The notes under the pieces are model-generated. The model was given only the letters and a program-made list of their open reading frames with translations. It ran no database searches and was not told the origin of the DNA. Made by a program: the position numbers and the translations under genes. From Bryoerythrophyllum caledonicum (Eukaryota > Streptophyta > Bryopsida > Pottiales > Pottiaceae), in assembly GCA_963971425.1 (NCBI GenBank), contig OZ020515.1, positions 35,227,856-35,291,855 on the forward strand: a stretch of DNA of 64,000 nt, written 5' to 3'. Shown here piece by piece: positions 12,654-63,860 of the stretch (the first letter of the stretch is position 1; the number at the start of each line of letters is the position of its first letter).

Positions 12654-12968
12654 ATTTTTGAATATTCTTCTGTTTATTTTCTTGGGGCTAGTTTCATATA
12701 ATTGTCTGTATTTGGAGATGGCTTTTCGAATGTTTTCTTAGGTATGTTTGGTGGTGATTTTTCGGGCTTGTATGTTGGCATTTTTTGCAATTAATGCTAT
12801 GTCATTTATCCATGTGTCGTGAGGTAGGTGTATGGAGGGTGGATTAGGGATTTGTGTGTGTTGAAGGTTTTGGAGTTCGTTGAGAATAGGGTGGTTTCGC
12901 CATTGGGGGTTGTTATTTACGATTCTTATGGTTTTTCGTATGGTGTGGTAAATGGTTAGATGTTGTTT

Positions 12969-24923: not shown

Positions 24924-25112
24924 GGGGACTTTTTGTCCTTATTCTCTGCCAAGTCCACTCCCTAGGCCTCACGTGTCAGTTCGCTTTGCGGCCCGAAAGT
25001 GAGTTTGGTGGGTGATCGGGCTTGGCTTATTTATTGTACCCAGATTTTTTGCGGTTTTTTTTAAAACCATCAACTTGGAATTTCGACCACGGTAGGGAGT
25101 TGACAATCGCAT

Positions 25113-26663
25113 ATGGCGGGAGAAGGAAGTAGGTCGATGGAGAAGCGCCCAGTATTTATGGACTTGGATGATGTTGATGAGACGGTTCTCCCGTCCACCA
25201 ACACGGAGTTGACTTCGGGATCATTGAATTCGTCGTCATCGAGCGGGAAGAGGCGGAAGAAGTCACCAAATCCGGATATGCCCCCGCATAAATACATGGT
25301 TGAATGTAGAGGGATTGCCGTCGAGTTTTACAAGCATCGAATGACAGGGGCGTTGACGAGGAGCTATTTGACCCACAACGAAGAGGGATACCACAAGTTG
25401 ACGGTTGACATGCGACACGAATTAATGTCAAACCTTGATAAATCTGAGAAATTTAATAATTTCTCAGATTATTGGTTGCATTCGGAGTGGTTGGACACAC
25501 AAGTGACCGCACTGACCACCAATATCGTTGCGAACTGGTGTTACGTCACAGGGAAGAAGGAGGATGAGAGCACCTGGAACCTGGAGGAGCGCGCTCTAGT
25601 GGCGAAGATGAGGATGATCCAGGGCTTCGTTCAACAGTACTCTTCTTCCCGTAAGAAGAAACTAGCTCCTTGGAAAGCGACTATTGAGGAACAAATTTTG
25701 GCTCACTGCGTTGGTGGAACTTTCAAGTGGCTTGAAAGTTGCGCTAAAGTGATTCCAATGCCAGGGCAGAGCGCGGTGGGTGGCTATGGGGTTGTATAGA
25801 AGGTGATGATAACCAAATTGGAAAACATTCCAAGTTGGATTTACTTAGCCGGAACGACTCTGACCAACACCAACGAGAGGGAGAAGCGCCGAAACATCAT
25901 CAACGAGGCTGGAGGGTGTCCGGTAGTACATCCAGGGATCATTAGACTTGCGTACATCCACCCGAAAACTATGGAAGGGTACACGCTCTGGTGGAATGGG
26001 GGATCTCTGGCTTCTTTTTGGTCGAAGTTAGACTCAAAAGTGGACGAAGCATTGCCATTTGAACGGATTGAGATGCATCCGAATACCGGGTTGTCAAGCC
26101 AAGAGCTTTGGTGGGTAAAAACTTACCGCCAAAATCGAGTGAACCTCGCGCTATCATTGCTTGTCATTGTGGGAAAATGCCACGACGCAAATTATATAAA
26201 CAATGACATCTTTCCATCGAATGTTTTGCTCCACTTTGATGAGTGGAAACCCAATACGGTGTACATCGGAATTTGCGATTGGGGGCTTTCTAGTCGGGTT
26301 GTGGAGAATGAGCCATCAAGGTATGGTTTTCAATTCAAGGAGGAGCTTCAACAAGAGAGAGAGCGGCGACGGTTTGTGGCAACAGAACTGTCCTATAATT
26401 TTGGGCCGCAAGACTCCACCAACTCGCTTGAAGTCATGCAACGGTCACACCTCTACTCCAAGGCAATAGATGCATTTGCGGTGGGTTGGATTTGTGAAAA
26501 AATTTGGAAAGAAGATTGGGACACTTCGTATTTCACCAGCAAAAACACGGAGCAATATGTAAACTTGAAGCTAAAACTTACAGCGTTGCAAAAACAACTG
26601 CTCGAAGAACGGTCTTCTGTACCAGATGTTTTAGACACATTAATGAAACCCCCCCACAACTAG
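25113..26663 (+). pseudogene. Protein-kinase-like cargo gene, one in-frame TAG
   Basis: A continuous plus-strand frame of 517 codons from the ATG at 25113 with one TAG at 25797-25799. The first 215 residues are unrecognised: an acidic/Ser-rich start, a basic patch (KRRKKSPNPDMPPHK), then helices. Kinase-like blocks follow: a Gly-rich loop 'GGYGVV' right before the TAG, the catalytic loop 'HDANYINNDIFPSNVLLHF' (Asp and Asn in the HxDxxxxN spacing), 'ICDWGLSS' in the DFG position (Phe to Trp), and 'AIDAFAVGWICEKI' as the DxxxxG helix F. The ATP-binding Lys is not evident near 'IYLAGTTLT'. It could be a divergent kinase or a pseudokinase; by position it is transposon cargo, divergent to the RING gene. 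The stop falls in the nucleotide-binding loop and would abolish kinase function unless read through. Confidence 0.7.
25441..25470. repeat. Perfect hairpin inside the kinase-like frame
   Basis: AATCTGAGAAAT, a 6-base loop, then its exact complement ATTTCTCAGATT. It encodes SEKFNNFSDY, so the frame is kept. Confidence 0.9.
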
Positions 26664-36533: not shown

Positions 36534-36695
36534 TAAGTCCAACTCTCACAAGAACATGTAAAAAAGTAACAAGGTTCCGGGAAAGAGGAAGAAGGAAGAG
36601 GGCAAAAAGGAGCAGGGAAGCGCAGTAAATGCCAAGATGACCTGGTAACCGGCGGAGAGAATGAACTCCGCCACAGTCCGAGACCGGGACGCGGG

Positions 36696-36814
36696 TATGG
36701 AATGCCAAAAAGGCTAGGAATTGACATTTCTTGGTACCGTGGGGAAGATTCCCGTTACCCCCGGTAACATTCTCTATACCCTGGGAAAGATGCTTTATAC
36801 CACGGGAAAGATTC
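36696..36814. repeat. Left 119-bp terminal inverted repeat
   Basis: Begins TATGGAATGCCAAAAAGG. Compared base by base with the reverse complement of 51890-52008, I find one mismatch (G for C at about 36739). Its inner half is built of the 21-bp repeat. Confidence 0.95.
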
Positions 36815-36885
36815 AATGTACCTTGGGAAGATGCTATGTACCCCGGGAAAGATTCGATGAACACTGAGAAGATTCTATCCCACAA
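36735..36885. repeat. 21-bp repeats, left subterminal
   Basis: Seven or so degenerate units around TRTACCNNGGGAAAGATTC. The first four belong to the terminal inverted repeat; the rest are specific to this end. Confidence 0.9.
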
Positions 36886-37196
36886 GCGGATATTAGCTGG
36901 TTAGTATATTTCAACAGGGTATCAACTTGTATTCGTATGGGTACAACATTAGATTTCTACCAAAATACATCCCGTCTGCCCGGCGATTCATCTATACCGT
37001 TCGTGTGAGTTCATCGTCTCCGCCCATCTGTTTCAGGTGAGGACAACACCCCAAACCCTGAGCTTTGGGCCGCATCCTCTCACCGCATTCCAGCGCCACA
37101 CTCTTCGCTCTCTTGCCGCACTCCTCACTCTCTAAGTTTCACTCTCTACGTTGCAGGCTGCGGCAGTGGACATCAGTTGCGTCTCCACCTCTGTCT

Positions 37197-37430
37197 TTAT
37201 GTGTTAGATGCGTTTTCGTTGTTGTCGGTCTTAACCCTAGCGTGCTATGTCTCTCTCTGCGCAAGTTTTGCTTTAATGCACGGTGAAGTTCGATTGGTGA
37301 AGCGAGATTTGAAAGGTCTGTTAGATGCGTTTGCGTTGTTGTCGGTCTTAACCCTAGCGTGCTCTCTCTCTGCTCGAGTTCTGCTTCAATGCATGGTTAA
37401 GTTGGATCGGTGGAGCGAGATCTGAAAGGT
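37197..37430 (+). repeat. Tandem duplication of about 118 bp
   Basis: A segment including TTGTTGTCGGTCTTAACCCTAGCGTGCT occurs twice (from about 37197 and about 37313), both followed by 'GAGCGAGATYTGAAAGGTCTGTT'-like sequence. It resembles 5' leader/intron DNA of the captured DnaJ gene. Confidence 0.8.
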
Positions 37431-37756
37431 CTGTTGATGTGTTGTGGTTTGTATTGGTTTATGTAGTGTCGTCATGGTTTATGTAGTGTCGTCATGGTTT
37501 ATGTAGCTTTGCTCATGCGTCCCGCTTCTGCGTCGCGGATGTGTTGAATTGGTGCCTCCTGTGGCCCTATCGGATTTGTGCTCCGCTTTTAATCGAGATT
37601 GGCGGGTGAAGTCTCTCTTGCTCTGAAAGACGTCGTTTTTATGTTCACTGGGGGGTGGTCGTCGCCGGATCTACTGATTTCCCCTTGTCGTCATGGAGAA
37701 GGCGGTGTAGGTATGTTATGTTGATCGATGGGGCGTGAATTGTTTGGTGTGCGTAG

Positions 37757-38411
37757 TTCAAGGAGCTCGCCCAGGAGTACGAAGTGCTGAGTGATCCCGA
37801 GAAGAGGGAGATTTACGATCAGCATGGGGAGGACGCTCTCAAGGCGGTGCCTCGCACAATCCATTCGACATTTTCGAGTCTTTCTTCGAGGGTGGCGGCA
37901 ACCCTTTCGCAGGTGCGGCATCACGGATCCGCGTGGTTTTTCGGGGATTTGGACGTTCATGTGTGTGTCTGTGTTTTTGGTTGTTGTGATGGGGGTGTGC
38001 GAGATGTGCAATGGTGCGTGATTGATTAGGAACTGGGTGCCGAGCGTGTTTCCGCAGTCTTGCATGCATGGGATAAGAACGTGCATTCCAAATGCATTAG
38101 AAGAAGTTCATGTGGTCATTACCAATCCTTAAGTGAAACGTGAGGTGGATTGCACTGTGGAAAACTTTCCAGCTCCTAAGGTTCCAATGTAATTGATTGT
38201 CCAGGAAAAGATTGAAGACGGGTGCATCGAGTTGGTGCGCAGGGTGTCAGGGTTCAGGCGTGAAGGTGTCCATCTGGCAGCTGGGCCTCAACATGATTCA
38301 AGAGATTCAATATGTTTGCTCTGACTGCTGCGGCTCAGGCGAGACCATCAGCGAGAAGGTAAGTGTAAGGGCAGTGCAAGCCTGCAAGGGCCAGAAGGTG
38401 GTGCAGGTTTA
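37757..38411 (+). pseudogene. Captured DnaJ (plant ANJ1-type) gene fragment
   Basis: An exon at 37757-37912, with AG before and GT after, encodes FKELAQEYEVLSDPEKREIY and 'DQHGEDALK', the end of a J-domain, then after a one-base slip the G/F region 'HNPFDIFESFFEGGGNPFA'. A second part at about 38212-38411 encodes cysteine-rich zinc-finger repeats: 'CAGCQGSGVKVSIWQLG', 'VCSDCCGSGETISEK' and 'CKGQKVVQ'. Some Cys and Arg positions have changed and frames are broken. The J-domain HPD exon and the substrate-binding C-terminus are absent, so this is a fragment, not a working co-chaperone. Confidence 0.85.
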
Positions 38412-38453
38412 GGGTTTAGATGGGGAGTTTTTTTTTGATGATTTTGCAACCAG

Positions 38454-39162
38454 TTGATGAACGGTACAAGAGCTTGAAGGATGGAAGGAAGGTGTGTGGC
38501 AAGTGCTACAGGAGCTTGAAGGATGCAGTGATGGCGACCAAGGATTGCCAGCCTCTATACCTTGACATACTGAAATACTACAGAGTGACCCTGGGAATGC
38601 CTATTGAACAAGAAGTACCCATGCTTTTGGTGGAGCAAGAGGCCCTCAACAACGCCCATGAAGTTGAGAAAGATGTAAGAAGTTCTTCCACTTTGATGTG
38701 AACTCTCTTTTGTTCAAATCAGGATTTATAGTTTGGACCTTAATATCCGTTTCTCAGTTCTGGTTCCTTTTATGCAGCCTGGACTTTGATCTAGCGAACA
38801 CTATGCAGGGACACACTCACGCTCCAAAAACGCGAGGTCTTTCTTTGTCAGAACAGCATATCCTTCCTGTAAGAAAACCGGACTTCTACTTTTTAATAAT
38901 TTTTTCCATTTCGATGAAATGTTGTAGGAATTCTTCTAATGTGATGTTTCCTGTCATGCTTTTGCAACTGTCATTTACCCTTTTCTTGAACTAGTTAATT
39001 TAAGCGAAGGACCTGCATTACCTACTCCTTTTATTAATCTGGATGATTTTTGGAACAAATATACAACGCAGGTATTCATAGCGGCTACCCTATGGTAGAA
39101 ATGCGGAAAATGCCACGCCATTGCAAGGTGACAACAATTCTTGTTCTTTTAGGATTACCCAG
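38454..39162 (+). pseudogene. Captured DA1-type LIM/peptidase gene fragment with introns
   Basis: Three exon-like pieces with intact splice sites: 38454-38674 ('DERYKSLKDGRKVCGKCYRS', 'DCQPLYLDILKYYRVTLGM', 'EVPMLLVEQEALNNA'), 38809-38868 ('GHTHAPKTRGLSLSEQH') and 39072-39162 ('YPMVEMRKMPRHCKVTTILV', 'LLGLPR'). These match in order the region of plant DA1/DAR ubiquitin-activated peptidases between the LIM domain and the HEMMH metallopeptidase site. The LIM domain and the catalytic part are missing. Retained introns show capture at the DNA level, not by reverse transcription. Confidence 0.85.
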
Positions 39163-40182
39163 GTATGTACTTTGTTTTGAGATCATGCTTGTATGTCAAC
39201 AATGCTTTGCTCCCAGAAAATTACATTTATTGGCAGTGTTTTCCTTGGTAGCCCTTTCTTAACATGCATCTTGGCAAGCGTAAATTAGTTTACACCACGT
39301 TCTCAAACTTCAACATTAAAATCTGACCAGCATTTTATGTGTTATTTGGGCGTGCAGAGCGTGCAGATTATTAACAGGATCCACTAGCGCACAAATTGAT
39401 GCACGCTCGGATCCGCCTTGACGGTGAGTAACATAACACACTACAGTTCCTTCTAAAGTCACCCAAAATTGAGTAAGATACGCCCACTTTTTCTCACAGT
39501 GAAATCCACCCGTGAATAGCTCTCTATTAGAGAAAAGCGACTAGTATTCATGATTGACTTTGTGCAAACTCTTTCTTCACTCTCACTGTAACTGCTTTGC
39601 CTTGGTTTAGAGACCACCAATAAGGATTCACCACGAAGCTCTTCCAATGATTTAATGGCTATTAAGAGTGAGGAGTGAGCAGGGTTAAGAATCATAAACT
39701 TTATAACAACAAAAATTAAATCAGAATCTAAAACATTAGTTCAGTAAAGAGAAGTTCATTAAAACTTTGGGCGACTTCACAAAATACTTTTTTGTCTTTG
39801 AGCTGACTATAGAATGGCCATATTCATTAAATTGAGACTTTTCAGAGATTTTGAGACAAAATGCTAGTTCTTGAAAATTCATTTAAAAAAATAATGACTA
39901 CAACAAAAAATAAATAATGCTCAAATAGTAATTCTATAATGAAAATCTAAAAGCTGGTGTTGTGATTTATTTATAAAAAAATACTAGTAAAGAGATAAAG
40001 GGGTTTATCCTTGAGTCGAGGATAAAATTGAGACTGCAAAAAGTCTCAATTTAACGAATATGACGTTTAGATATTTTTAGCTATTAAGTGTAGACATTAC
40101 TAATTAAAATTGAAAAAAGAGTACAATAATCATGGTATCTTTGCCTTGCTATACAAAGAACAGTTCTAATTTTCTTGCACAG
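39163..40182. other. No gene seen
   Basis: AT-rich sequence between the DA1 and VWA/Cache fragments. Only short frames occur; it may be intronic or intergenic DNA carried along with the captured pieces. Confidence 0.4.
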
Positions 40183-40531
40183 GTGATAGTGATCTTCACA
40201 GACGGTCAGTTCGCGCCATTAGACGCCACCATCTTTCCCACGACGACCACCTTTGACTCAAAAGTGAAGATCATCGTGTACAAGCTGCCGCGCCAGACTG
40301 ACCCGAATCCATTCCTGCGCCTAACCATGCTATTCGAGGTCCTGTCCAACACCAAGGGCACCTTCGAGCTGCTGGAGCCCCTCACCACAATTAATCCTCT
40401 CTACTCCATTCGCAGCTTCTACACGTTCCTGGCCCAGACACAGCTGGTTGAGGCCAAGAATCAGTCCACCTGGAGTGCTCGGTACACTAGTGTCTCACAG
40501 GCCCTAAATGGCACTACTGTTACTTATCCAG
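40183..40531 (+). pseudogene. Captured exon of a VWA/Cache-like gene
   Basis: A 349-bp exon-like block bounded by TTGCACAG and CCAG|GTTGG encodes VIVIFTDGQFAPLDATIFPT, 'VKIIVYKLPRQTDPNPFL', 'FEVLSNTKGTFELLEPL' and 'YSIRSFYTFLAQTQLVE', ending 'TVTYPG'. The order (VWA strand ending in TDG, later VWA strands, then YxxY...W and VTYPG) resembles VWA plus Cache proteins related to calcium-channel alpha2/delta. It is GC-rich relative to its surroundings. The open frame is intact but isolated. Confidence 0.6.
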
Positions 40532-40559
40532 GTTGGTTCTTCTCATCACCTCATTTGTT

Positions 40560-40860
40560 GTGGAAAATCTGTGTTTCTGGAGCTTGAAGATACCTCCTCT
40601 TTTGGTCTATTGTGGTACCGTTTTTTTAGCTCCATATGGGTATTGGATTGATTGGAGAGCTTGTGGAGCCTGTGTTTCTAGAGTTTGAAGGTTCCTCCTC
40701 TTCTGATTTATTGTGGTACTGTTTTTTACTCTATATAGTTATTGGATTGGTAGAAGAGCTGATTGTTTTTGTATTAGAGTTGTTGGATTGGGTATGGAAG
40801 AGCTTGGTGGTTTTCTTTTATTATAGTTGTTTGATCATAGAAGAGCTCGGTGGTCTTTAA
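40560..40860 (+). repeat. Degenerate tandem duplication of about 117 bp
   Basis: TGTGTTTCTGGAGCTTGAAG at 40570 recurs as TGTGTTTCTAGAGTTTGAAG at 40672, and the following 'CTCCTCTT..TTGTGGTACYGTTTTTT' and 'TATTGGATTG' blocks also recur. Probably intron sequence of the captured fragment. Confidence 0.65.
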
Positions 40861-41253
40861 ACTCAATTCAAGGTAGTTTTAGTTGTCCTTGGAAGTGAAG
40901 TGAGAGTTTGCACATGAGATCAACCAAGATGAATATTAGTCTCCTTTGAGCTGATTCTATACAATGAAAACTTCCATACAGTCGAGATTGATAGCAATTA
41001 TCATGTTGCAGTTAAAAACTTTCACGGTAAAGCTCACGGGCGACATCGTATTCGAATTTTTCTGGTCTTCAGTCCTTGGGTTGAGAAAGACGCAACCCGG
41101 TCGGTATCCTTTGAACTCTGCTGTTCTATACCAAAATTTATTGTTCACATCATGACATCTTTTAACATAGCATTTAGAGAAAAATCATAGAGTTGTAGTT
41201 TGAGAGCTATCCAACAACTCATCTAACTCTATGTTGTATGAAAATATCAAATT

Positions 41254-44200
41254 CTATGGGCGTCCATAACTAGTGTCCATAGTTGAGATGTTGATTTTCC
41301 GCAACATACTTTGCAGGGATTTGTATGGCGGCAGAAGAAGGGTGGTGAAGCACGTGCTCGCTTGTACACAAGGTTCGTCGTCTCTAGCCAATAACTCAAC
41401 TGTGATGTTTGCATTGCTGAAGTACTCTTTCCCTGTAATAAAAACAGCCAATCTTGTCCTCTCCATGTTAGTCATGCTATGAACGGCTGTTTCAAACCAT
41501 ACTTGTTGTTGATGTGCAATAGACGCCCTGAAGTGAACAACCTTCATGAACTCTGTAGCATCCACAGAGCAGGCCCCTGAAAAAATGATCTTCAAACACT
41601 CAGGGTTTAGTAGAGCCAAGTCTGCTAGAAAATTAGCTTTCTCCACAGGCGAAATTGGAGCTGTCTCCACGCTCATGAAGAATCCTTCTCTCAATGCTGC
41701 ACCCACTAACGCCCTGTCTTTGAACAAATGTGTCCAGATGATTGCACCGATCTTCCCTTCAACCTCGGAGCTCCAGTTGCCTTCATCGATCACGAAGTTC
41801 TGAAATGACCAACCTAGGCTGTCGTCTATCTCCTCGTCACAAAGGTGAGTGACTAGTGCTGATGCCTCTTCATACGACTTCCTTAGTTGTTTCAGGATAT
41901 TCCATTTTGTGGGGAAGCATAATCGAAAGTCCCTCTCCAAAGACCATCGTAACTGTTGGTCAATACTTAATAAATCCTCAGGAACCATGTCACACATCAT
42001 GAGCAGCGTAGAAAATGTGAATGGGCGATTAACCTCCAAGTTATTGAACGCGATACTCCAGATCAGGTGTCCCAACATGGGTGCCTGCATTGATTTGAAA
42101 TTCAGTAAATATATTCAGCAATGAAGTTTGAATACTGAAATATTCAAATTGAACATAAGTAATACATACCACATCAAGTTGTCTCTTAGGTGCGATGATA
42201 TCTCCATCTTTTAATGGGTGTAGAATCGTTCCTTCCCGATTGTTTGGATACTCGAAAATCTCGCTGTAATTCTGTCCATAGCACAAATTGTATTCAGTAC
42301 TTGATTTGTTCAAATCTTCTAATTTGAAATAGATTTTAGACAAATGACTGGGACCTCCGGAATGATTCCTTGGACCTCAGGGATGATTCCTTGTACCCTG
42401 GGAAATATTCCCTAAATCCTAAGAAATATTCCCTGGACCCTAAGAAATATTCTCTGAAATCATGTTTCACTGTTGAATTGTAGGTTCAGATGGTGGGGAC
42501 TTACAAACTGATAGGAGACAAACTGCTTCCAGCATGAGGTAAGCCAAGCGTTTCTTAATCCATCCACATCAATTGTTTGCTTCTCTTTTATCCCGCTCTT
42601 GTGGACGAATTTGATCTTCACGTTGAAGCAGGCTTTGTTCTCCAGAACTACATCGTTCCATTTCTCAGAGAAAGCCTTGTATTCCTTTCCTTGATGTACC
42701 TGAATTCAAGTACAAACATTGTTTTTAGTATATCATTTTTGTCAACTGTTGTTGACATTATATTTTCTAAGTGATTCTACAATTTACCTTAATGATTTCT
42801 TCAGGTACCAAGGATGAAGAGTCGCAGTAGAATTTGAAAGGGAAGAACACTTTCTTCTCAATGTAGTATCTCTGGAATGCCAATAGTGCTGCCTCCACTG
42901 CTTCCCTTTTCTGAATAAGATCTTCCTCCCCAAGGTTTTCGTTCATTCTTCCATTTCTTGATTTGCACATTAACCTCAACAAACTCTTGCTGATTCTCTT
43001 GTTAGAAGGAAGGTTATATACTTCATCTAACATGTTAATGTGCTCTGTGCCTTGTTCACCATAGGTTTGCAAAATCAAGAGGGAGTGCTCCTTGCAAAGT
43101 GCATCACCTGGAAGTAAGTGAACTAACCATCCGAATTCTTCCCATTCTCTCCAGAACGGTCTAGCATTAGACTCAAATTCCCTCCTGATGTCTGCAGCCG
43201 TATACATTGCTATCTCCCGCACAGTATCTTCTTCTGTGAATTTCACCAAATCACTCTCTAGACATGTTAGTCCCATGCGATTGTTTCTGCACTTCATGAG
43301 TTGTCTTGTGATGGACTCGATCTCTGGTTGCTGCTTTTCAGCTCCCTGTAACACTGTTGTCTCCAATTCTTGGATGGCTCGCCAGAACAATCGGCTATGT
43401 GGATCACTGTCAGCGACTTGGTGAGCATTACAATTTCTTCTCTCCAGAGCTGTGTAGTATGCTTTCTCCGCTTCTACCCATAATTCTGATAGGTGGTCTA
43501 AATGACTCTCGCTGTTGATGTACACTTGTCCGCTAATGTCAATAAATGTTGATGTGCGTCCAGGTGTGGGAGGTGTGGGTACAGGAGCACTCCAGCTCGT
43601 AGATGAACTTGCAATTCCAGCAACACTGTAAGAAGCATAACATGATTACATTTAGTAGGTTTTGTAAATGAATTTGTCTTATGATAGTGAAAGACATACA
43701 AATAAAAAAAAACTTATTGGAAGTAGTTGGTGGAACTCTTACCTTGTCTCTTGAGCAGTTGGTCGAACTCCACTTTGAGTAGGAGCTGGGAGAGCTAGGC
43801 GTCCAGAATTGCATGCAATTGGAGGAGCAGCTGAGCTGGAGCTGTAAGCAAATATTTTTGTAAAATTAGCATGTCTTCAAATTTGTCAAGCTTTTTTTAT
43901 TCCTAACAATACTTCATTTTAAATGCAATGTTTTTGATGAATTTAGCTGTTGTTCAAGAGAGACCATTGCCTTTGAAATGATTCAGAGGACTTGGAATAG
44001 ATTCTCAAGCCTTCGGGAAAGATTCCTAGTACCTTGGAAACGATTCCAAGGACCCTGGGAATGATTCCAAGACCATTGCAAAAGATTTTCAGGACCCAAG
44101 ACTTTAAGGTAGACAATAATGTATCAACTTTAGTAGGAATAGGTCTATATGTAAAATGAATCAGAATAGAACATTGGAATAAGGTAACAAATGTAATACC

Positions 44201-44924
44201 TGGATTGTTCAGCAGGTGCTGGAGCATACACTGATAGAATCAATGGTATGGTGGGCGGAGGAGGTCCTGCTGCTACGCTCCTATAGTAAGAATCCACTCC
44301 AGCTTGTGAAAGTAGAGTAGGGTCTAGACAATAGATGATATTTGTTTGTGTTGGCAGTGATCCAAAGGGCGCTCCCTTAGGTCTGATGTAGGGCTCCAAG
44401 AAAAATCCAGAATCATTTCCACATTTTTTCCGTTTCTTGCTCCTCTTGTAGAAAAGTCTTGTGTAGTTTGATGTAGTTGATGAAAGGGCTCTTGCAAATG
44501 CCCTTGCAATACCATGTTCCACTGAATCTACTGAGAATGGATGGACTAAGCCTCCCCACTTTGTTGTACTTGGCAGGGTTACAAGCACACTAGGAGAGTC
44601 TGCCTGCCAAGACTCCAAAAATGGAATCAACTCCCCTGCCTTGTCCAAAATCCACAAGGTATTTTCTGGTAGGAAGTAGACAGTCCTTGTGAGTGAGCAC
44701 CGCTCACTGGTCACATCTTCACTTGGTGCTCCTCGTCCTCCTGCACCTCCTCGTCCTGCTGCACCTCCCCGTCCTGCTGCCCCTCCTCGTCTTGTCGCCC
44801 CTCCTCGTCCTGCCGCCCCTCCTCGTCCTGCCGCCCCTCCTTGTCTTGGTGCCCCGAATTGTGGGTTGTATGAAAAGTCTTGAGCCCTATTTACTATAGG
44901 CATGGGAAAGACAGTATTTCTCAT
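41254..44924 (-). CDS. RGG-repeat/HECT-type E3 ubiquitin ligase of the transposon, six exons
   Basis: Exons (minus strand): 44924-44200, 43841-43743, 43625-42788, 42699-42505, 42271-42170, 42084-41254. All introns are GT..AG, phases agree, and the joined frame is 2,790 bp (929 residues plus stop). Near residues 25-65 is a run of G-R-G-G-A repeats, as in RNA-binding RGG proteins. The C-terminal half looks like a HECT domain: 'TIDVDGLRNAWLTSCW' (N-lobe, cf. DxGGxxREWF), and the C-lobe end 'VQASTCFTTLLLPPYKSLQS', whose Cys (about residue 898, 32 from the end) sits where the ubiquitin-accepting Cys of HECT ligases lies. The function in transposition is unknown. An upstream exon is possible because a frame reading 'AAGGGQQLNRMDEDEFQQAH' abuts the ATG. 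The match to HECT is by motif only. Confidence 0.75.
42345..42465. repeat. 21-bp repeats in HECT-gene intron 4
   Basis: About five units such as GATTCCTTGGACCTCAGGGAT and ATTCCCTGGACCCTAAGAAAT, fully inside the intron between 42271 and 42505. Confidence 0.85.
43975..44105. repeat. 21-bp repeats in HECT-gene intron 1
   Basis: About six degenerate units, e.g. GATTCCTAGTACCTTGGAAA and GATTCCAAGGACCCTGGGAA, inside the intron between 43841 and 44200. Confidence 0.85.
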
Positions 44925-45774
44925 GCTTGGTTGGATGCGTTCTTGTTGTGTGCCTGTTGAAACTCATCTTCGTCCATTCTGTTCAGTTGCTGTCCACCAC
45001 CAGCAGCGACCAGCAGTGACGCAATCCTCACCGTCAACTGCACACCAGGAGAAAAGAGAAAAAGATTCAGGGAACATGCCAGTTTCCAAGAATTTTGCTG
45101 TGAAGATGAGCGATAAAAATGTGCAAGTGAAAACATGTAAGTACTTAACATCCCCCCATCAATAAAAATGTTATACTGAAAACAATGTACGAATTCAGTA
45201 CCTGGAACAAGCGCTCACGTGTGTGGTCTCGTGAACAGATTTGGCAGGGTTCAGATCAAATTTGGAACCAGAGAAGTTGCTCTCCAAGGGAAACGCATAT
45301 GTATTGAATGATTCCTGTGCACGATGTACCAGTATTAGTTGTCTATGCTGCAAGAAAACGTCTCGCCCATGTCTGAAAACTTTAGCGAGAAAAATCTGCA
45401 AGAAAAATAATGCTTACCTCTTCTTGAACCCTATGTGTTCTTAATCGTCATGGTGTCATGGTGAAGATGCCGCACAAGAAACACAATATGAAACAAGAAG
45501 TAACAGAAGATGAAATTCACAACCGAGACATTTCAAGAGAGTAGTTCAAGCAAAGTTGGACGAGCAATTTGAGATTAAACAGACAAAGGCGAAAAGGTGG
45601 TATGCCCATGTTGTCATTTCGTGTGATAGTGCCATCACTTTCCATTGTACGTGAAAAGATTTACATTTTTCAGAACATCACTTTTGATTATGTGTTTGAA
45701 AAACGTGGCCAAGTCACATGGATGTAATTCCAGAATTGATATTTCATGAAAGGTGCTCAAGAAAGATTTGTTGG
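44925..45774. other. 5' region of the HECT gene, possible extra exons
   Basis: Minus-strand frames at 45151-44921 and 45401-45195 are short and could hold leader exons; one ends at the HECT-gene ATG. No TATA box stands out. Confidence 0.35.
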
Positions 45775-46030
45775 ACTCAATGATAGATTCCTTGCACTAA
45801 GGGATAGATTCCTTGCACTAAGGGATAGATTCCTTGCACTAAGGGATAGATTCCTTGCACTAAGGGATAAATTCCTTGCACTGAGGGAAGATTCTTTGGA
45901 CAAAGGGGAAGATTCTTTGGACCTCGAGATAGATTCTTTGGACCTCGGGATAGATTCTTTGGACCCCGGGATAGATTCTTTGGACCCCGGGATAGATTCC
46001 TTGGAGCTCGGGATAGATTCCTTGGACGTA
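45775..46030. repeat. 21-bp repeat array, intergenic, about 12 units
   Basis: Units shift from ATTCCTTGCACTAAGGGATAG (four near-identical copies) through ATTCTTTGGACCTCGGGATAG to ATTCCTTGGAGCTCGGGATAG. It can be translated as heptads in several frames, but the periodicity is best explained as DNA repeat. Confidence 0.95.
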
Positions 46031-48890
46031 GCAAAAGAAAGTGATGTTAAAATTGGGTAATATCAATTCAAAATGAAATATGAAGGATATATGAAAATCT
46101 TATACTTTGTATCTTATTCACTGAATATAGTGTGGATTCATGATTCATTTGGTTTTGTATTTAGGGTCATAAAACAAATGATTGCTAAAAATTAGAATCT
46201 AAAGAAATAAATATCATAAAATTAAATTAAAATTAAAAGTATAAAGAACATAGAATTAATTTAAACAAATCCAAATATAAATATAATAGTCTATATTTAA
46301 GGAAAAAGTTACAATTTATAATAAGCTAGGTTTGGATTTTTTAATTTTTTTAACAAACAAGTTCTATATTTATTTAAATTTTTGTACCAAATGAAGTCTA
46401 TCAATATTTTTAAATAACAAAATAGAAGCTCTTTAAGAAATGGGATTTAATTCAAATATTAGCAATAAATCTCTTGAGCCCTAAACCTTAAAATCTCCTA
46501 TTATATATGTGTTTCTATTATTGAATTTTCATGCATGTATTCCAATAAAAGGTGGCCTAAAGTATCCAAGGACATTTTTGGATGTTTCACCTTAAATTGT
46601 ATTATGAAAAAAATTCACATCTTCTTTTTATGAAGGCTAACTTATTTTTAAAAAATCCTACTACATGATGTTTTTATATAGCCTAATTAATATATCATAG
46701 AATACGTAGCATTTTATGGACCTTGTAGCATCCCTACAAGTAATATAAAATTTTGCCCTTTTAATTAAATGGACCTTATTTTTTAACTCACATAGTTTTT
46801 CAAAAAAATCACCAATGACCTCCTCAAGATCCATTTGTCATGTGTAATTTTTTGCATGTAGCTGCCTTCTTGAAGGTGATATTAAATTTAACTTTAGTGT
46901 AAAATTAGTGTCATGTGAGACTTAAAAATCTGTATGATTTACATTTGTTCATATCAAATGCTCATATGCAAAGAGCATGCAATATGACAATCATGGTATA
47001 GCATCTCATACACCGTTCATTAGAAATTAGTATTAGTCAACAAAAAATCTTTGCAATAATTGCAAGACAACTTTTTAGCACAACTTGTGATTGCTCTTGA
47101 TTTTCTCAATCTTTTCACATTTAAACACACAAAATTTCAAGGCGTCAAGTTCTTAATGTTTAACATCTTGTCCATCTTTACCTTTCAAATTTTTTGGAGG
47201 ATTAAAATTGATCTTTATTAAAGCCAAAGATGTTACCACCTTCACTAGCATTATAACCGTGGACCCAAACATTAGCCATGGTTGTTGTATGCTAAAAAGT
47301 AATATGGTGCTCTATAAAAAATTACTTCAAACACTATAATCTTTCAATTTCTCTGTTAAAAACTTTAAATTTCATTTGAATTGATTGCCTATTAGTCTTT
47401 TTAAGGTCTTATAGTTAAAAAAAATAGAATTTACTTTTAATCCTTAAAGGAGCAATTGTCTAGCGGTGGATTTTCCGAACATTTGAGCAGGTTCTTATGA
47501 TGTCAATTTTCAACAAATGGTTTTGAGATTTTTACTAAAGAAGGGGAAATGTAAGAGCTTTGTAGGAGTGTAATGTTTTATAAATCGGACATTTGATGAA
47601 AAAGCTTTGCTAGTGGAAGTGGTTTTTTTTGCAAGAATGGGCAATTTGGACAGTTTACTAAGATCCTCCAATAGCTTTGAAACTTTGTGTACAACTAAAA
47701 CAACCTCCTTTGAGGTTTCACCAAAATAATACTTCCTTTAGTGCAAAAATTTCACTCCAAGAAGAGTCAAAGTTCTTGGGCACCCAAAAAAAAAAACTTT
47801 CATTTTTCCACATTAATAAACACAATTTAAAAGTTAGAAGTTAGGTGGCTATAACAAAGGGTTTGGTCACAAGTTTGATTAGGCATTAGTGATGAATAAT
47901 GTTCTCCATATAATAAGATTATAGTAACCTTAAGGTACTATCAACTTCTATAATGCCTTTCATGATCTTTAAATAGTAAAACTTATTTTTATTTGCTACT
48001 CACAATCAAACTCCCCGGTACAATTACCTAACCACAAACCTTTATAATTCTCTATTGTTTAGGGCTCAACATAGACAAAAGAAGCCAAAACTCCTATATT
48101 TCAAAGCATCCTCACAATTGCACTCCAAACAAGAATGAAGCATCAAAATTTTAATAAAAAAAATCCGTGGCCCTTTTACAAAAATAGTCATTACATAAGT
48201 GGTAGGAAGGCACGTTTAGATTATATAATGGAGATGATTATGTCAAAGATTACTTTGACTTTCACTATTCATGCAACAGCTTTTGATTGGTTGTCATCTA
48301 ATTTAGACTGATATTTGTATGAATAACGAGGCAGTTAAATTGAAATCTGAAAGGACCTCTCAAACGAAATGCAAATCTCAGTGATGGATTGCAGCTGTGG
48401 AGATGCTCATGAGCACATTGACCATCTCTTACAGAACAGTCATGGCCTCTCCCATCAACAGATATGGAGCCCTTCCACATAGCCCCATTCAAACAGGAAG
48501 GTGATCGATCGATCGATCGCCAGCATCAGCTTCTACACTTGGAACCAGCAATTGTAATGAGGACTTAGAGGCCAACAACACAGCAGCAGGAATCCTTGAC
48601 CGACACTGATGATTGAGTGCACATGTTGGAGTTAGTTATAATTAAGGCTCCACGACGGAGAGCTGTTGCAAGACAACGTCAAGTCAATCATTCGACGTCT
48701 TCTCAGAATGTTGCACCGGGCTTTACTGCGATTTTCAAAAGATGTCCTATTTTTGGTTGCCGTGCGGGGAACACTGATTAATTCATCAAGTGGTCAAATT
48801 GCTTTAACTCATAACATCAATTTTGTACAAGGTGCAACAAAATCAAGCAAAATGAGAGGTAACTGTAAGAGATTGCCATCCACAAAGAAA
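46031..48890. other. AT-rich spacer between the two transposon genes, no gene seen
   Basis: About 2.9 kb without a convincing frame. A (GATC)4 run lies at 48503-48519. Phrases near 47440 and 47770 faintly resemble the ends of the TTAA elements at 57-62 kb, but too weakly to call. Confidence 0.4.
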
Positions 48891-48897
48891 TATTTAC

Positions 48898-49095
48898 CTG
48901 CGCCAGGGCGTCTTTATTTGCTTGCTCTTCCAACAACTCATGCCTGGCGTAAATGTTGTTTAGAGCTGCGAAGACCACAGTTTTCGCCTTCGAAAAGGTC
49001 TTTGAAAAGGCCATATACACACACGCATGGAGTGACTGAGATAAGGCGGCAACTAGAGGAAGAACTTCTCCACAATGGCTTGAGGCACAAACCAA
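48898..49095 (-). CDS. Possible exon of a transposon gene
   Basis: A minus-strand block encodes EVLPLVAALSQSLHACVYMA and 'FSKAKTVVFAALNNIYARHE', ending 'KDALAQ' at a strong donor (GCGCAG|GTAAAT). It could be a further exon downstream of the integrase or belong to a separate transcript. No domain is recognised. Confidence 0.35.
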
Positions 49096-49129
49096 CCCCT
49101 AGAATATTGTGCTATCCTTTGAACTTCTT

Positions 49130-49220
49130 AAGACCCGGGAAAGATTCCCAGGAGGCCAGGTAAGATTCCTAGGAGGCCGGAAAAGATTCCCAGGATCCTG
49201 GGAAAGATTTCCAAGGTGGA
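49130..49220. repeat. 21-bp repeats after the integrase stop
   Basis: About four units, e.g. GATTCCCAGGAGGCCAGGTAA and GATTCCCAGGATCCTGGGAAA, directly beside the end of the integrase frame. Confidence 0.85.
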
Positions 49221-49221
49221 G

Positions 49222-51097
49222 CTAGATGTCACTTGATTCATGCCTAGAGGCTAAATCTACTAGGAGAGCATAGGCTTCTCTGCTCTCACTGGAGTGGTCG
49301 ACAATATCTACCTGGTTCACATGCAAGTGACTCTCATGAGCTAAAAGACAGTAATACGACAAGAAAAAATGCAAATGAAAACATTGCAAATTGTCTTTCC
49401 CTAACCTCCCTCTGGCATATGCCAAATCTCGTAAGCTAGATAGCCCACTTGGCAATTCTGGGACTTGGTATATTGTTGGCTCCGGAGCTCGACGACGAGA
49501 CCTCCAAGTCTGTGGACCAGGGGGTCCTAAGTCTTGAGTGCCAATGTGCTCAAGGTCATCAGCGATATGCATGTCTGGGACATGGGACTCCAATCTGAAA
49601 AGAGATAGCCAATATAAAATCAATAATATCTTACTTCTGTTGTTATAGATTGAACTGTTTGAGAAAGCAAAAACTCATTTAAGTGAACGAAACTCACCTA
49701 TGCAATCTCTCAAATTCACGGAAATAACGTGCTGGTACATGGGAAGGGCGATATCTGCCATTTTCATTGATCTGGCGAACTAGATGGGAGTTCCATACGC
49801 CAATATACTCATCAACCACTTCTTGCAGTATTGGAAGAAAGACAGCTACGAATGACGCCCTCTGGTAAGGCTCATCTGGAATGAAGAGACCTGCAGTAAC
49901 CATTTCTTTAATAGCATTCTTGTAGTACCAGATTACTTTCTCCCATAGATGTCGCCACCAATGTTCAATTCTCTGCACACACAGTGCGCAATAGAGATCA
50001 AGTTATTACACAAAATATTACAGACATGAGATGCTTAAAAAAAAACATAATACTTACCTGATTGTGCACTGAAGAAGCAACTAGAAATGGGTTCCTTGTT
50101 TCCACCCGTGCCCTTTCCATGTATTCACGAATGAGTACATGTTCTGCAGCAAAATCTGACCGTACTCGTAGAGGGGTACCAAACCGCTCTACAGCTGCTC
50201 TGAAAGGCTCAAAAATGGTTTCTTGAGTCTTATCTGCACCAACTCTTGCGTAGAGTACGTAGTGTGATGCACCATCAATACATCCGTGAATGCGCAAGCC
50301 GTACATGGCAAGTTTGTCGTATGCTGCACAACTTTTAAAAAAAATTTAAAATAACAAAAGGCATAACATGAAAGACAATTGGCTGATCATCACATAGTGT
50401 GCATTTTGGATTTAAACATAAACTTGATAATGTAAATTGAACTCAAAATCAATATGCCACAATGCCATAGGCATTGTGACATTGTATTGTCGCCGAGTTA
50501 ATGGCAGCCCCAAACGCCTCCTTTCATAATGAGCTCCTGTAGAATTCACCTGTAAATTTTCTATACCCTGGGTAATATTCCCTATACCCTGGATAATATT
50601 TCCTATACCCTGGGTAATATTCCCTATACCCTGGGTAATATTCCCTATACCCTGGGTAATATTCCCTATACCCTGGGTAATATTCCCTATACCCTGGGTA
50701 ATATTCCCTATACCATGGGCAAGAATTCACCTATAAATTTAACCAACAATAGTAGTAAAGAAACAAACATACCTGACAATACTTGCAATGCTCTTGCAAT
50801 GTTCCTTCTTGGAGGTCTCACATGTAATCGTCCCAAGGCAGCTTTGACATGGAGAATACCCCAATTGGCTCCATGCTCCCGAACAGGAAGGAGAGCTTGG
50901 ATTCTGCTGGGGAGCTCTTCGATTGTGAACTGATCGTACACCCTGAAATCTCTACCTATGACCTTACTCATGAGCCTCTTCAACCTCCTTGGATCTGAGA
51001 TATTCAATGCTGTAGCAATGCTTTTCAGTGGAACTCTTTCACTCAACATACTCTGAATATAGTTCACCAAATCTATTGGCAACTCCGTGCCTTCCAT
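49222..51097 (-). CDS. Retroviral-integrase-fold DDE transposase, split gene
   Basis: Exons (minus strand): 51097-50773, 50536-50424, about 50330-50058, 49972-49698, and one starting at 49594 that stays open to a stop at 49222. The start is the ATG giving MEGTELPIDLVNYIQSML. N-terminal part: a helix-turn-helix-like region ('VPLKSIATALNISDPRRLKR') and 'ANWGILHVKAALGRLHVRPP'. Core: 'MALWHID' (first Asp), 'YGLRIHGCIDGASHYVLYAR', 'TPLRVRSDFAAEHV' (second Asp) and 'SSVHNQRIEHWWRHLWEKV' (Glu; Asp-x34-Glu). The HNQRIE..WR block is typical of a eukaryotic integrase-core family. Splice phases agree at introns 1, 3 and 4, but the phase at intron 2 does not close with the sites I chose. The role would be cutting and joining of the element ends. 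Confidence 0.8.
50560..50715. repeat. 21-bp repeats in integrase intron 1, about 8 units
   Basis: Near-identical copies of ATTCCCTATACCCTGGGTAAT fill the intron between 50536 and 50773, the most homogeneous array of the family. Confidence 0.95.
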
Positions 51098-51889
51098 AGT
51101 TGCAAACAGTGTGTAGTTCCTGAGCAGGTAAGCAAAATGTAATATAAGATTTACAAATAACAGGGAACCTGAAGCAAAAGTACAAGAATTTGATTGTAAA
51201 ATAAGGACTTCGATTATGCAACGTCTGGACTGGAAAAGAAGCCAAAGTTGCACTCGTACAAGCCATAGAAACTTACCTCAATGAAGTGCATGAGCTTTCA
51301 GCATTTCCAGAGATTTTCGCCGCTTCGCCGATTTCTTGAGGATGTGTGAAACAAAACGGAAACGGAATTGCACGAGGACAACTCTCCCAATTTCCCAAGG
51401 TCGAGATCAAACCCTAACTGAAGGTTTCGAGTCATCACACCTGCAAGCGGGAAATGAACAGCTTAGGGTTTGAGACCATGGAAGCAAAGTCAAAGAGTTT
51501 TTGAGAAATGTTTTCCAGACTCTCTTGATTTGTGATGAATCTGATTGTTAAATTAGGACTTTGTTGCTGCAACGTCTGGACTGGAAACGAAGCCAATAGA
51601 AACTTACCTCAATGATGTGCATGAGCTTTCAGCATTTCCTGCAATCTTCGCCGCTTCGCCGATTTCTTGAGGACGTTTGAAACAAAACAAAAACGGAATC
51701 GCACGACGACGACTCCTCCAATTCCTCAAGCTCGAGATCAAAATCGGATGGACACGATTAATCTTGATCGGCGGTCAAGATGGATCATCGGGCAGGAAAA
51801 AAAAATTCATACAAAATACAACCAGTCTCGTATGAATACAGGTTGATACCCGGTCGAAGAAACTATCCTGCTAATATAGCCTGGGTGGA
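51098..51889. other. Integrase 5' region
   Basis: An acceptor-like CTGCTCAG|GAAC lies 20 bp before the ATG, so a leader exon is likely upstream (around 51180-51270). A segment with GCATTTCC, 'TCTTCGCCGCTTCGCCGATT' and 'TCTTGAGGA' at 51300 recurs at 51630, an imperfect direct repeat of about 150 bp. Confidence 0.5.
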
Positions 51890-52008
51890 GAATCTTTCCC
51901 GTGGTATAAAGCATCTTTCCCAGGGTATAGAGAATGTTACCGGGGGTAACGGGAATCTTCCCCAGGGTACCAAGAAATGTCAATTCCTAGCCTTTTTGGC
52001 ATTCCATA
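51890..52008. repeat. Right 119-bp terminal inverted repeat
   Basis: The reverse complement matches the left end at 118 of 119 positions. It ends CATTCCATA and is followed by CGCAGG. Confidence 0.95.
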
Positions 52009-52631
52009 CGCAGGCGCCAGTGGGTCATACCAGAAAGACGAGCCCAGGCCACGCTGGCACTGGGTCAGGGTAAAAGAGAGCTGCTGACGTGGGTCCGGCA
52101 GGACGGTTCCAGAAGAAAAGGCCAAGGCGTGGAAGAGTCTAGTGGGACTGGTCGAAAAGCGGAGCAGGACTGGCCTCGAGAGAACAAACTTGGGCCGGTC
52201 ATTGGTTGGCGGGTGGTGGTGCACAAGACAGGCGGCCCGGGGTCCGGACTTCAGGGCACCCAGAACCTTCTAACGCCAAACTTCGACAAACTAACTGGAA
52301 TTCTAGGGCAACGCTTCCCATCGCCCTCGCTACATATCTGTATCTCCGTCTCACATTTTTCTCTGCTTTCCGGTCGGTCAGTGGTGCTGCGGCAGTGAGC
52401 GTCGTCGGCTGGTACGTTGTCCGGATCTGCCCCCCGCGAGAGCGCGATGCTCCTCGTTTTCATCGTTTGAGGTTTGTATTCGGGAGTTCGCGATTGGGGG
52501 TACATAGGGTCGGCGCTCGGGGCGGCGTAGGCAATTGTGTATTCGTCGGCAGCAGCAGGGGCAGCGTGGTGATTGATCAATTCGGTGCGTCGTTCTAGGG
52601 CAGTCGGGGCAGGGCCGGGGCGTTGGGCACC
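52009..52631 (+). promoter_or_regulatory. Upstream region of the Hsp110 gene
   Basis: GC-rich DNA between the transposon end and the chaperone ATG. TTCCAGAA at 52107 has the inverted TTCnnGAA spacing of a minimal heat-shock element, but a full three-unit element is not seen. No clear TATA box was found. Confidence 0.35.
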
Positions 52632-55070
52632 ATGAGCGTGGTAGGGCTAGATGTGGGTAATGAGAACTGCATCGTGGGCGTGGCGCGTCAGCGCGGGATC
52701 GACGTGGTGCTGAACGATGAGTCGAAGCGCGAGACGCCTGGGATGGTGTCGTTCGGCGAGAAGCAGCGTTTCGTGGGCGTGGCGGGCGCGGCGTCGGCGC
52801 TGATGAACCCTAGGAACACGGTGTCGCAGATCAAGCGGATGATAGGGCGGGCGTTCGCGGACCCGGAGTTGCAGCGCGACCTGCGTCTGTTCCCATTCGC
52901 GGTGACGGAGGGGCCGGACGGCCTGCCTTCGATCAACGTTTCGTACCTGGGGGAGGCGCGTGAGTTCAGTCCGACGCAGGTTCTTGGCATGCTGCTGTCG
53001 AATTTGAAGAGCATAGCGGAGAAGAACCTGGGGACATCCGTGGTGGACTGCGTGATCGGCGTGCCGGTGTACTTCACGGAGCTGCAGCGGCGGGCGTACC
53101 TGGACGCGGCGCAGATCGCGGGTCTGCACCCGCTGCGTCTGATGCACGAGACGACGGCGACGGCGCTGGCGTACGGGATCTACAAGACGGACCTGTCGGA
53201 CGCGGATCCGATCAACGTGGTGTTCGTGGACATCGGGCACGCGAGCATGCAGGTTTGCATCGCGGCGTTCAAGAAGGGTCAGCTGAAGATTCTGGGGCAC
53301 GCGTTCGAGCGGAGCCTGGGCGGGCGCGACTTCGACGAGGTGCTGTTCGAGCACTTCGCGGTGAAGTTCCGTGAGGAGTACAAGATCGACGTGAAGTCGA
53401 ACGCGCGGGCGAGCCTTCGGCTGCGGACGGCATGCGAGAAGGCAAAGAAGATCCTGAGCGCGAACCCGATCGCGCCGCTGAACGTGGAGTGCCTGATGGA
53501 CGAGAAGGACGTGAGAGGGCAAATCAGGCGGGATGAGTTCGAGGAGCTGGCGAAGGGGAGCCTGGAGAAGGTGCGGGGTCCGTGCGAGCGGGCGCTGGAG
53601 GCATCGGGTCTACGGACTGAGCAGATCTATGCGGTGGAGGTGGTTGGGTCGGGGTCACGTGTGCCGGCGATGCTGAAGATCTTGACTGCGGTGTTTGGGA
53701 AGGAGCCATCGCGGACGATGAATGCGAGCGAGTGCGTGGCGCGGGGTTGCACGCTACAGTGCGCGATGCTGAGCCCGACGTTCCGTGTGCGTGATTTTGA
53801 GGTGCAGGACTCATTCCCGTTCGCAATCGGTCTGTCGTGGAAGGGCGCGGCGCCGGAGACAGAGGGCGAGGAGGAGGTGAGTTCGAACAATGTGGTGTTC
53901 GTGAAGGGGAACCCTGTGCCTTCGACAAAGCTGCTGACGTTCTACCGTTCGAGCACGTTCGCGATCGACGCGTTCTATGCGGAGACTGGGGAGCTGCCTG
54001 CGGGGATGAGCCCTCGGATTGCGACGTTCACGATCGGGCCGTTCACGCCGACAGTGGCGGAGAAGGCGAAGATCAAGGTGAAGATCCGTCTGAACCTGCA
54101 CGGGGTGGTGTCGCTGGAGGCGGCAACGATGATCGAGGAGGAGGAGGTGGAGGTGCCGGTGGCACGGAAGGAGGCGGCAAAGGAGGGCGAGGGGGCAGGC
54201 AGTGAGGAGGGTGCCGGCGCGGAGAACGGGGCGGAGAAGATGGAGACCGACGCGAAGCCAGAGGTGACGAAGAAGAAGAAGACGAAGCGGTCAGATGTGC
54301 CGGTGCAGGAGGTGATCCACGGAGGCCTGGCGGGGGCGGAGCTGACGAAGGCGGTGGAGAAGGAGTACGAGATGGCTCTGCAGGACCGGGTGATGGAGGA
54401 GACGAAGGAGAGCAAGAATGCGGTGGAGGCGTACGTGTACAGCATGCGGAACAAGTTGTACGAGAAGCTGCAGGAGTATGTGACGGAGTCGGAGCGGGAG
54501 GAGATGACGGCGCGACTGCAGGAGACGGAGGACTGGCTGTACGAGGACGGGGAGGATGAGATCAAGAGCGTGTACACGGCGAAGCTGGCAGAGCTCCGGA
54601 AGCAGGGCGACCCGCTGGAGGCGCGGCAGCGGGAGGAGGAGCTGCGGGGTCCGGCGATGCGGGAGCTGAGCTACTGCATCTCGAGCTTCCGTGAGGCGGC
54701 GCAGAGCAAGGAAGCGAAGTTTGACCACATCGATGCGGGGGAGAAGGAGAAGGTGATCGCGGAGTGCAACAAGGCGGAGGAGTGGTTCAAGGACAAGAAG
54801 CAGCAGCAGGATGTGCTTCCGAAGTCGGCAAACCCAGTGCTTTTAGCGGCAGAGCTGAAGAAGAAGACAGAGGTGCTGGACCGTTTCTGCAAGCCGATCA
54901 TGACGAAGGCAAGGCCGGCGCCTCCGAAGCCTGCGCCTGCCCCAGCAGCAGCAGCGGAGGCGAAGGCGGGGCCCCAGCAGCAGCCGGCTGACGCGTCGGC
55001 GGCTGAGCCGATGGACACGGAGGCGGCAGGGGCTCCAGGAGGCGAGGCGGAGACGATGCAGACGGAGTAG
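52632..55070 (+). CDS. Hsp110-type chaperone (HSP70-14/15/16-like), intronless
   Basis: The ATG at 52632 in context GCACCATGA opens an 812-residue frame, close to the length of plant HSP70-14/15. The N-terminal ATPase domain has 'VVGLDVGNENCIVGVAR' (phosphate 1; Hsp110-type GNEN in place of Hsp70 GTTY), 'VVDCVIGVPVYFTELQRRAY', 'HETTATALAYGIYK', 'VVFVDIGHASMQVCI' (phosphate 2) and 'VEVVGSGSRVPAMLKIL' (adenosine). A substrate-binding region follows, with a Glu/Lys-rich acidic insertion (about 500-560) and a helical lid ending 'PMDTEAAGAPG'. Hsp110s act as nucleotide-exchange factors and holdases for cytosolic Hsp70. The frame is intact. Lack of introns and strongly GC-biased third positions, unlike the AT-rich surroundings, are notable. 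Confidence 0.95.
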   Translation: MSVVGLDVGNENCIVGVARQRGIDVVLNDESKRETPGMVSFGEKQRFVGVAGAASALMNPRNTVSQIKRMIGRAFADPELQRDLRLFPFAVTEGPDGLPSINVSYLGEAREFSPTQVLGMLLSNLKSIAEKNLGTSVVDCVIGVPVYFTELQRRAYLDAAQIAGLHPLRLMHETTATALAYGIYKTDLSDADPINVVFVDIGHASMQVCIAAFKKGQLKILGHAFERSLGGRDFDEVLFEHFAVKFREEYKIDVKSNARASLRLRTACEKAKKILSANPIAPLNVECLMDEKDVRGQIRRDEFEELAKGSLEKVRGPCERALEASGLRTEQIYAVEVVGSGSRVPAMLKILTAVFGKEPSRTMNASECVARGCTLQCAMLSPTFRVRDFEVQDSFPFAIGLSWKGAAPETEGEEEVSSNNVVFVKGNPVPSTKLLTFYRSSTFAIDAFYAETGELPAGMSPRIATFTIGPFTPTVAEKAKIKVKIRLNLHGVVSLEAATMIEEEEVEVPVARKEAAKEGEGAGSEEGAGAENGAEKMETDAKPEVTKKKKTKRSDVPVQEVIHGGLAGAELTKAVEKEYEMALQDRVMEETKESKNAVEAYVYSMRNKLYEKLQEYVTESEREEMTARLQETEDWLYEDGEDEIKSVYTAKLAELRKQGDPLEARQREEELRGPAMRELSYCISSFREAAQSKEAKFDHIDAGEKEKVIAECNKAEEWFKDKKQQQDVLPKSANPVLLAAELKKKTEVLDRFCKPIMTKARPAPPKPAPAPAAAAEAKAGPQQQPADASAAEPMDTEAAGAPGGEAETMQTE

Positions 55071-63714: not shown

Positions 63715-63860
63715 AATCCTTTAAAATCGTTGGAGGTTAATCAACAAAATCTAAAGATTCTCCAAAAACCTACAGATTCTCCGTAGACCCTAAATATTCT
63801 CCGAGATCCTAAATATTCCCCTTGAACCCTAAATATTCTTCATATGCCCTAAGGATTATT
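63715..63860. repeat. Degenerate 21-bp-like repeats outside the integrase element
   Basis: Units such as ATTCTCCGTAGACCCTAAAT and ATTCCCCTTGAACCCTAAAT at about 20-21 bp spacing resemble the repeat of the 36.7-52.0 kb element, suggesting a remnant of a related element at the window edge. Confidence 0.6.

Follow-up and report, generated by a model that had tools for sequence, protein, structure and literature searches.

A stretch of 64 000 nucleotides from Bryoerythrophyllum caledonicum (Bryopsida, Pottiaceae; GenBank assembly GCA_963971425.1, contig OZ020515.1, positions 35,227,856 to 35,291,855 of the forward strand), here called the window, was analysed and found to contain a DNA transposon of about 15 kb at 36696-52008. 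The element carries two genes on its minus strand, one for a DDE integrase and one for a HECT E3 ubiquitin ligase. It is very probably a complete copy of an IS3EU/GingerRoot transposon with a HECT partner gene that is kept by selection; the probability of this reading was put at roughly 0.87. The evidence consists of the ends and target duplications of the element, its other copies in the genome, the models of both genes and the pattern of selection between two subfamilies.

Ends, copies and integrase gene

The inverted ends of the window copy were read at exact bases. They comprise 119 bp each (left, 36696-36814, plus strand; right, 51890-52008, minus strand), terminate in TATGG and CCATA and differ at a single position, 36739 (G versus C). 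An inverted match of this length at 99% far exceeds chance, and the mismatch is private to the left end of the window copy, the left ends of all nine other copies carrying the alternative base. The element is flanked by the target duplication CGCGGG (36690-36695) and CGCAGG (52009-52014), which match at five of six bases; the G/A difference lies within a CpG and is consistent with decay of a methylated C. A preliminary description of this stretch had proposed such ends, a near-perfect 6-bp duplication and a complete, young 15-kb element, and these proposals were upheld as far as they could be checked.

The host genome (437 Mb in 894 contigs) was searched with the 119-bp ends; the counts from this copy search are lower bounds. 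At least ten full-length copies including the window copy were recovered (family A), so that the same ends bound nine further genomic copies. When oriented and compared, all ten start with TATGG and end with CCATA, and eight of the ten are flanked by identical 6-bp duplications. In seven copies at most one of the 119 positions distinguishes the left end from the right. Copy lengths are 13.0-17.4 kb, except for 26.1 kb (C11) and 31.9 kb (C8), both of which hold extra sequence. The copies differ little from one another: identity to the window copy over the longest aligned block of each is 97.9-98.6%, and, measured against the column majority, the HECT region diverges by 0.29-1.96% across copies (0.68%, 26/3801, in the window copy) and the integrase region by 0.23-0.89% (0.84%, 18/2131, in the window copy). 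We read family A as one recent burst in which the window copy appears to be of middling age, in relative terms and with no absolute date. All ten copies lie in G+C-rich flanks (58-74% over 200 bp, compared with 43% for the window). An empty target, which the preliminary description had proposed to look for, was obtained exactly for one other copy, at C7:17.2 Mb; this copy lies inside a tandem repeat, and a neighbouring unit, 42 bp off, carries the target without interruption, matching at 30 of 30 bases. Allowing up to four mismatches, none was found in the 500 bp flanking each of the other nine copies.

The integrase/transposase gene (49222-51097, minus strand) encodes, by model, 442 amino acids in five exons (51097-50773, 50536-50447, 50323-50058, 49972-49698 and 49594-49222). 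The junctions were set by comparison with the ten copies and with relatives, and exon 5 extends to the stop at 49222 according to relatives P0002 and P0006 and the open frame. The catalytic residues are D138, D195 and E230, with 34 residues between the last two, giving a DD(34)E core. The product matched the Pfam family rva_4, which we take to be the model for IS3EU cores, at 1.7e-40; the matches to rve (7.6e-5) and to the NCBIfam IS481 model (1.5e-9) were below the cut-off, in the latter case the curated one. No N-terminal HHCC was found in the integrase: no Cys precedes the first catalytic Asp and no such Pfam domain was matched.

In the preliminary description the integrase gene was considered to be apparently intact, and this had to be rejected for the window copy. 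Its coding exons have open frames, but intron 2, which starts directly after the first catalytic Asp, has TT at its 5' splice site (50445-50446, minus strand) instead of the GT present in all nine other copies; the start of the intron is fixed by these copies and by the relatives. Because intron 2 starts with TT rather than GT, the integrase transcript of the window copy is unlikely to be spliced correctly unless a cryptic site takes over, and because this splice site has been lost the copy is probably not autonomous now. Across the family, the frame and all splice sites of the integrase are intact by model in six of the ten copies, and both genes are open by model in two.

Public assemblies (sources lgn, jgi and ena) yielded eleven relatives of the integrase; in the best of them, 57% of the query aligned at 67% identity. 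Two of them, P0005 and P0007, seem to read into intron 2, past WHID. No relative of exon 4 was found in IMG/VR, and the integrase profile had no sequence match in the PDB. Relative P0004 yielded a structure model of medium quality (mean predicted local distance difference test score 67.9); in a fold search with this model a retroviral integrase was listed first and IstA was also among the best, with no match at E <= 0.001.

The HECT gene, selection and pairing

The second gene, overlooked in the preliminary description, lies downstream of the integrase in the same orientation (41254-44924, minus strand). By model it encodes 929 amino acids in six exons (44924-44200, 43841-43743, 43625-42788, 42699-42505, 42271-42170 and 42084-41254, including the stop); in the window copy the frame is open and the introns are of the GT..AG type. 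Pfam HECT was matched at 9.1e-15 over the C-terminal part of the protein. The active-site cysteine lies near the C-terminus, where the ASTC region with the TCF cysteine aligns with NEDD4. Eight relatives of the last exon were found in public assemblies, and the catalytic Cys is kept in all six that reach the site (P0012-P0014 and P0017-P0019), P0015 and P0016 ending before it. Three of them, P0012-P0014 (277 residues each), match the last exon over 99% at 55-66% identity and equal length. Relatives sought with residues 320-929 were not found. By its domain and catalytic cysteine the product is identified as a putative HECT E3 ubiquitin ligase, with ligase activity predicted.

The same pair of genes was found in a sister subfamily (B). 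One subfamily B copy, C6:22107683-22121466, is bounded at both ends, has the duplication GCCGGT on both sides and contains the integrase and HECT genes in the same order and orientation as the window copy; in a second copy, on C1, the last exon of HECT is open. The ratio of nonsynonymous to synonymous divergence (dN/dS) was calculated between the subfamilies, excluding codons with stops or gaps. For HECT it was 0.17 (bootstrap 0.125-0.221; 862 codons) and, in a second comparison, 0.20 (bootstrap 0.157-0.264; 864 codons), both at a synonymous divergence (dS) of about 1.4; for a further HECT that is more distant, dS had reached saturation. For the integrase it was 0.19 (bootstrap 0.122-0.265; 310 codons) at dS 0.44. 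Between the subfamilies the integrase has diverged far less at synonymous sites (pS 0.34) than HECT (pS 0.63), and its divergence is uneven along the gene, 26 of 110 fourfold sites differing in the first ~300 codons and 13 of 24 in the rest; these two differences suggest that subfamilies A and B have exchanged modules.

The pairing of the two genes was then assessed across the genome. Protein searches gave 44 HECT and 71 integrase matches (both lower bounds), which were grouped by hand into 36 and 40 loci. An integrase locus lies within 30 kb of 23 of the 36 HECT loci, within 20 kb of 22 and within 10 kb of 17, whereas the random expectation for pairing within 30 kb is a mean of 0.18 and the highest value in 2000 uniform placements was 3. 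When the ten family A copies are left aside, 13 of 26 HECT loci are still paired. Conversely, HECT lies within 30 kb of 25 of the 40 integrase loci, the one at C7:17214866 counting only through an adjoining family A copy. Distant pairs with a spacing of about 5-6 kb were observed at C7:30.20 Mb, C4:23.90 Mb, C47, C545 and C14:3.75 Mb, with HECT matches 28-33% identical. The partnership is widespread in this genome.

Classification and alternative explanations

IS3EU, a small superfamily that has been little studied, links the bacterial IS3/IS481 elements with the transposons of eukaryotes. In PMC10045372 the IS3EU/GingerRoot lineage is described by TA..TA ends, usually 6-bp duplications, the lack of an HHCC and a first Asp 100-300 residues from the N-terminus, and GingerRoot and IS3EU form one lineage with 99% bootstrap. 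The present family was assigned to this lineage because it has TA..TA termini (in all ten copies), 6-bp duplications (GCCGGT in subfamily B as well as the family A duplications), no HHCC and its first Asp at residue 138; it also has the DDE core (rva_4, DD(34)E). The likeness to IS3EU that the preliminary description had proposed from the ends and the duplication was thereby strengthened, the rva_4 integrase and the weak IS481 match being added to it. The ends TATGG..CCATA resemble the TAYGG..CCRTA of rust-fungus IS3EU, some of which carry TET/JBP dioxygenase and alpha-kinase partner genes (PMC12730594), and accessory genes are therefore already known in the superfamily. Similarly, an IS3EU-type element in a streptophyte is not new by itself, since GingerRoot is on record from the land plant Selaginella lepidophylla (cited in PMC10045372); compared by its description there, GingerRoot is likewise a plant-lineage member with 6-bp duplications and mostly TA..TA ends.

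The window element differs from the IS3EU elements described in PMC10045372 and PMC12730594 in its length of ~15 kb, its HECT partner gene and its 21-bp arrays in introns. Like the TET/JBP-bearing fungal elements (PMC12730594) it has a non-transposase gene that plausibly acts against host control, but the enzyme is a ubiquitin ligase and not a dioxygenase. The word HECT has no occurrence in the main text of PMC10045372 or PMC12730594, and no paper pairing HECT or ubiquitin with an IS3EU-type transposon was found in open-licence PubMed Central; Repbase was not searched, and the pairing may already be described in its reports. VANDAL elements of Arabidopsis are transposons with an anti-silencing or modifier gene; here the carried gene is a ubiquitin ligase and not a DNA-binding protein.

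Several observations weigh against the reading as an IS3EU/GingerRoot element with a selected HECT partner. The reading is drawn from sequence and gene models, and the family was assigned by its described features. The copy at C14 has no target duplication, perhaps through rearrangement; in three copies the left and right ends diverge, by 11, 18 and 35 mismatches (ungapped counting). It is only the C-terminal part of the HECT protein that reaches the Pfam match, and the structure model of its last exon was too poor for use. The subfamily B copy on C6 has stops in both genes, and changes within family A are near neutral (nonsynonymous to synonymous changes 39:14 and 133:58, versus a ratio of ~3.5 expected). 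The partnership is not universal, because 13 of the 36 HECT loci and 15 of the 40 integrase loci (five of the latter at 66-73% identity to the window integrase) are unpaired within 30 kb. Some of the HECT loci of ~30% identity could be host genes. Elements were mapped end to end in subfamilies A and B, the distant pairs being known by gene proximity, and the ends of the compact pair at C7:30.20 Mb were not found in the 3.2 kb examined.

The HECT gene could be a captured host gene, a chance passenger that contributes nothing to the life of the element. It is damaged (by a stop, a frameshift or loss of the start or a splice site) in six of the ten family A copies and intact by model in four; the two subfamily B copies, compared with each other, give a HECT dN/dS of 0.78 at dS 0.06, and the unpaired integrase loci point the same way. 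A passenger is nevertheless unlikely in view of the low dN/dS between subfamilies at high dS, the fact that several diverged lineages in this genome show the pairing, and the conservation of the last exon in P0012-P0014. We read HECT as a gene that is kept while the elements multiply and that decays in place, which would be expected of a gene serving the element.

Another explanation considered is that HECT and integrase belong to a single element in family A and in subfamily B, but that the more distant HECT-integrase neighbours are coincidental, host HECT clusters lying beside unrelated integrase relics. The distant pairs are indeed without mapped ends and the unpaired HECT loci would fit, but this explanation is quite improbable given a random expectation of 0.18 loci, which assumes uniform placement.

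Membership of Ginger1/Ginger2, Polinton or long terminal repeat (LTR) elements in place of IS3EU/GingerRoot can practically be dismissed: an rve-like catalytic core is common to all of them and a retroviral integrase headed the P0004 fold search, but rve itself is matched weakly, the duplications are of 6 bp compared with 4 bp in Ginger1 and 4-5 bp in Ginger2 (as given in PMC10045372), neither the 4-bp duplication nor the HHCC-bearing integrase of Ginger1 was found, and the terminal repeats are inverted, not direct, with TATGG..CCATA ends. Polinton/Maverick elements are marked by a protein-primed DNA polymerase, a packaging ATPase and capsid genes, and none of these families was found in the 23 open frames of at least 100 amino acids overlapping the element.

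Repeat arrays, neighbouring sequences and a possible role of the ligase

Towards its inner side, each inverted end consists of 21-bp units (consensus TGGGAAAGATTCCTTGGACCC) that contain an imperfect dyad, GGGAAnnnTTCC. At the left these units form an array in and beside the inverted repeat (36740-36864, plus strand). The repeat listing and a motif scan gave five further arrays, all in the orientation of the left end: two in HECT introns (42357-42461 and, in intron 1, 43973-44097), one between the two genes (45758-46029, 13 hits), one directly after the integrase stop codon (49136-49198) and one in integrase intron 1 (50569-50715). At a score above 10 the motif was found 40 times on the plus and four times on the minus strand inside the element, and twice on each strand elsewhere in the window. 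We suspect that the units are protein-binding sites. In subfamily B, the ~8.8 of 13.8 kb examined showed only end arrays with the unit, together with one unrelated 21-bp array of 1.9 copies. A tandem array of 19-20-bp units at 63751-63839, outside the element, resembles the repeat by eye and was unmatched in the motif scan.

An insertion of 249 bp at 39813-40061, with imperfect inverted repeats (39808-39842 and 40039-40073), is private to the window copy. It is absent from all seven copies that keep the site, the remaining two (C7:14.0 Mb and C1) being without the whole surrounding region, and is probably a nested miniature inverted-repeat transposable element (MITE) with the short duplication TAGA. 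A sequence of ~590 bp at C7:24238471-24239059, with ends about 75-80% like those of the window copy, 21-bp arrays inside and no clear duplication, is possibly a non-autonomous relative. On C1, two ends of a related subfamily lie in the same orientation 1.27 kb apart (50678721 and 50679992), both preceded by GAAGTG; they represent either a tandem duplication or a nested copy.

Elsewhere in the window, an HSP70-family open frame (52632-55070) begins at an ATG (52632) 617 bp past the end of the target duplication, and the element may affect its promoter. Minus-strand open frames for reverse transcriptase and RNase H at 7682-13640 probably belong to a non-LTR retrotransposon. Transposase frames of the hAT type, with DUF659, the hAT dimerisation region and a long C-terminal extension, are present at 15503-18618. 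Two adjoining plus-strand frames were noted at 25104-26663, of which the second weakly matched a protein-kinase family (7.4e-5, below the cut-off).

In the mechanism proposed for the element, the DD(34)E transposase would bind the inverted ends through its N-terminal region, excise the element and join it to target strands staggered by 6 bp, so that a cut-and-paste reaction would give the 6-bp duplication. The HECT ligase, if active as predicted, would mark either the transposase or a host protein that acts in silencing or repair, and transposition would be raised or tuned accordingly; removal of a host factor or limitation of the transposase is proposed in view of the selection on HECT and of what HECT proteins do in general. 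Manipulation of the host by targeted protein destruction is known in viruses and bacteria, and we know of no case in DNA transposons. That a lineage of IS3EU/GingerRoot transposons keeps its own HECT gene, and that it destroys the transposase that it encodes or a host protein for silencing or repair as a transposition strategy, is a tentative proposal to which we give less than even odds, slightly lowered because HECT is missing from the neighbourhood of 15 of the 40 integrase loci.

With a recently multiplied family, common ends, several open copies and a selected ligase, the activity of eukaryotic IS3-type transposases becomes testable, as does a possible use of ubiquitination by DNA transposons to counter the control exerted by their hosts. 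Copies of the transposon HECT gene, if annotated as genes, would inflate host ubiquitin-ligase counts, and transposons of this kind may tamper with the protein-disposal machinery of their hosts.

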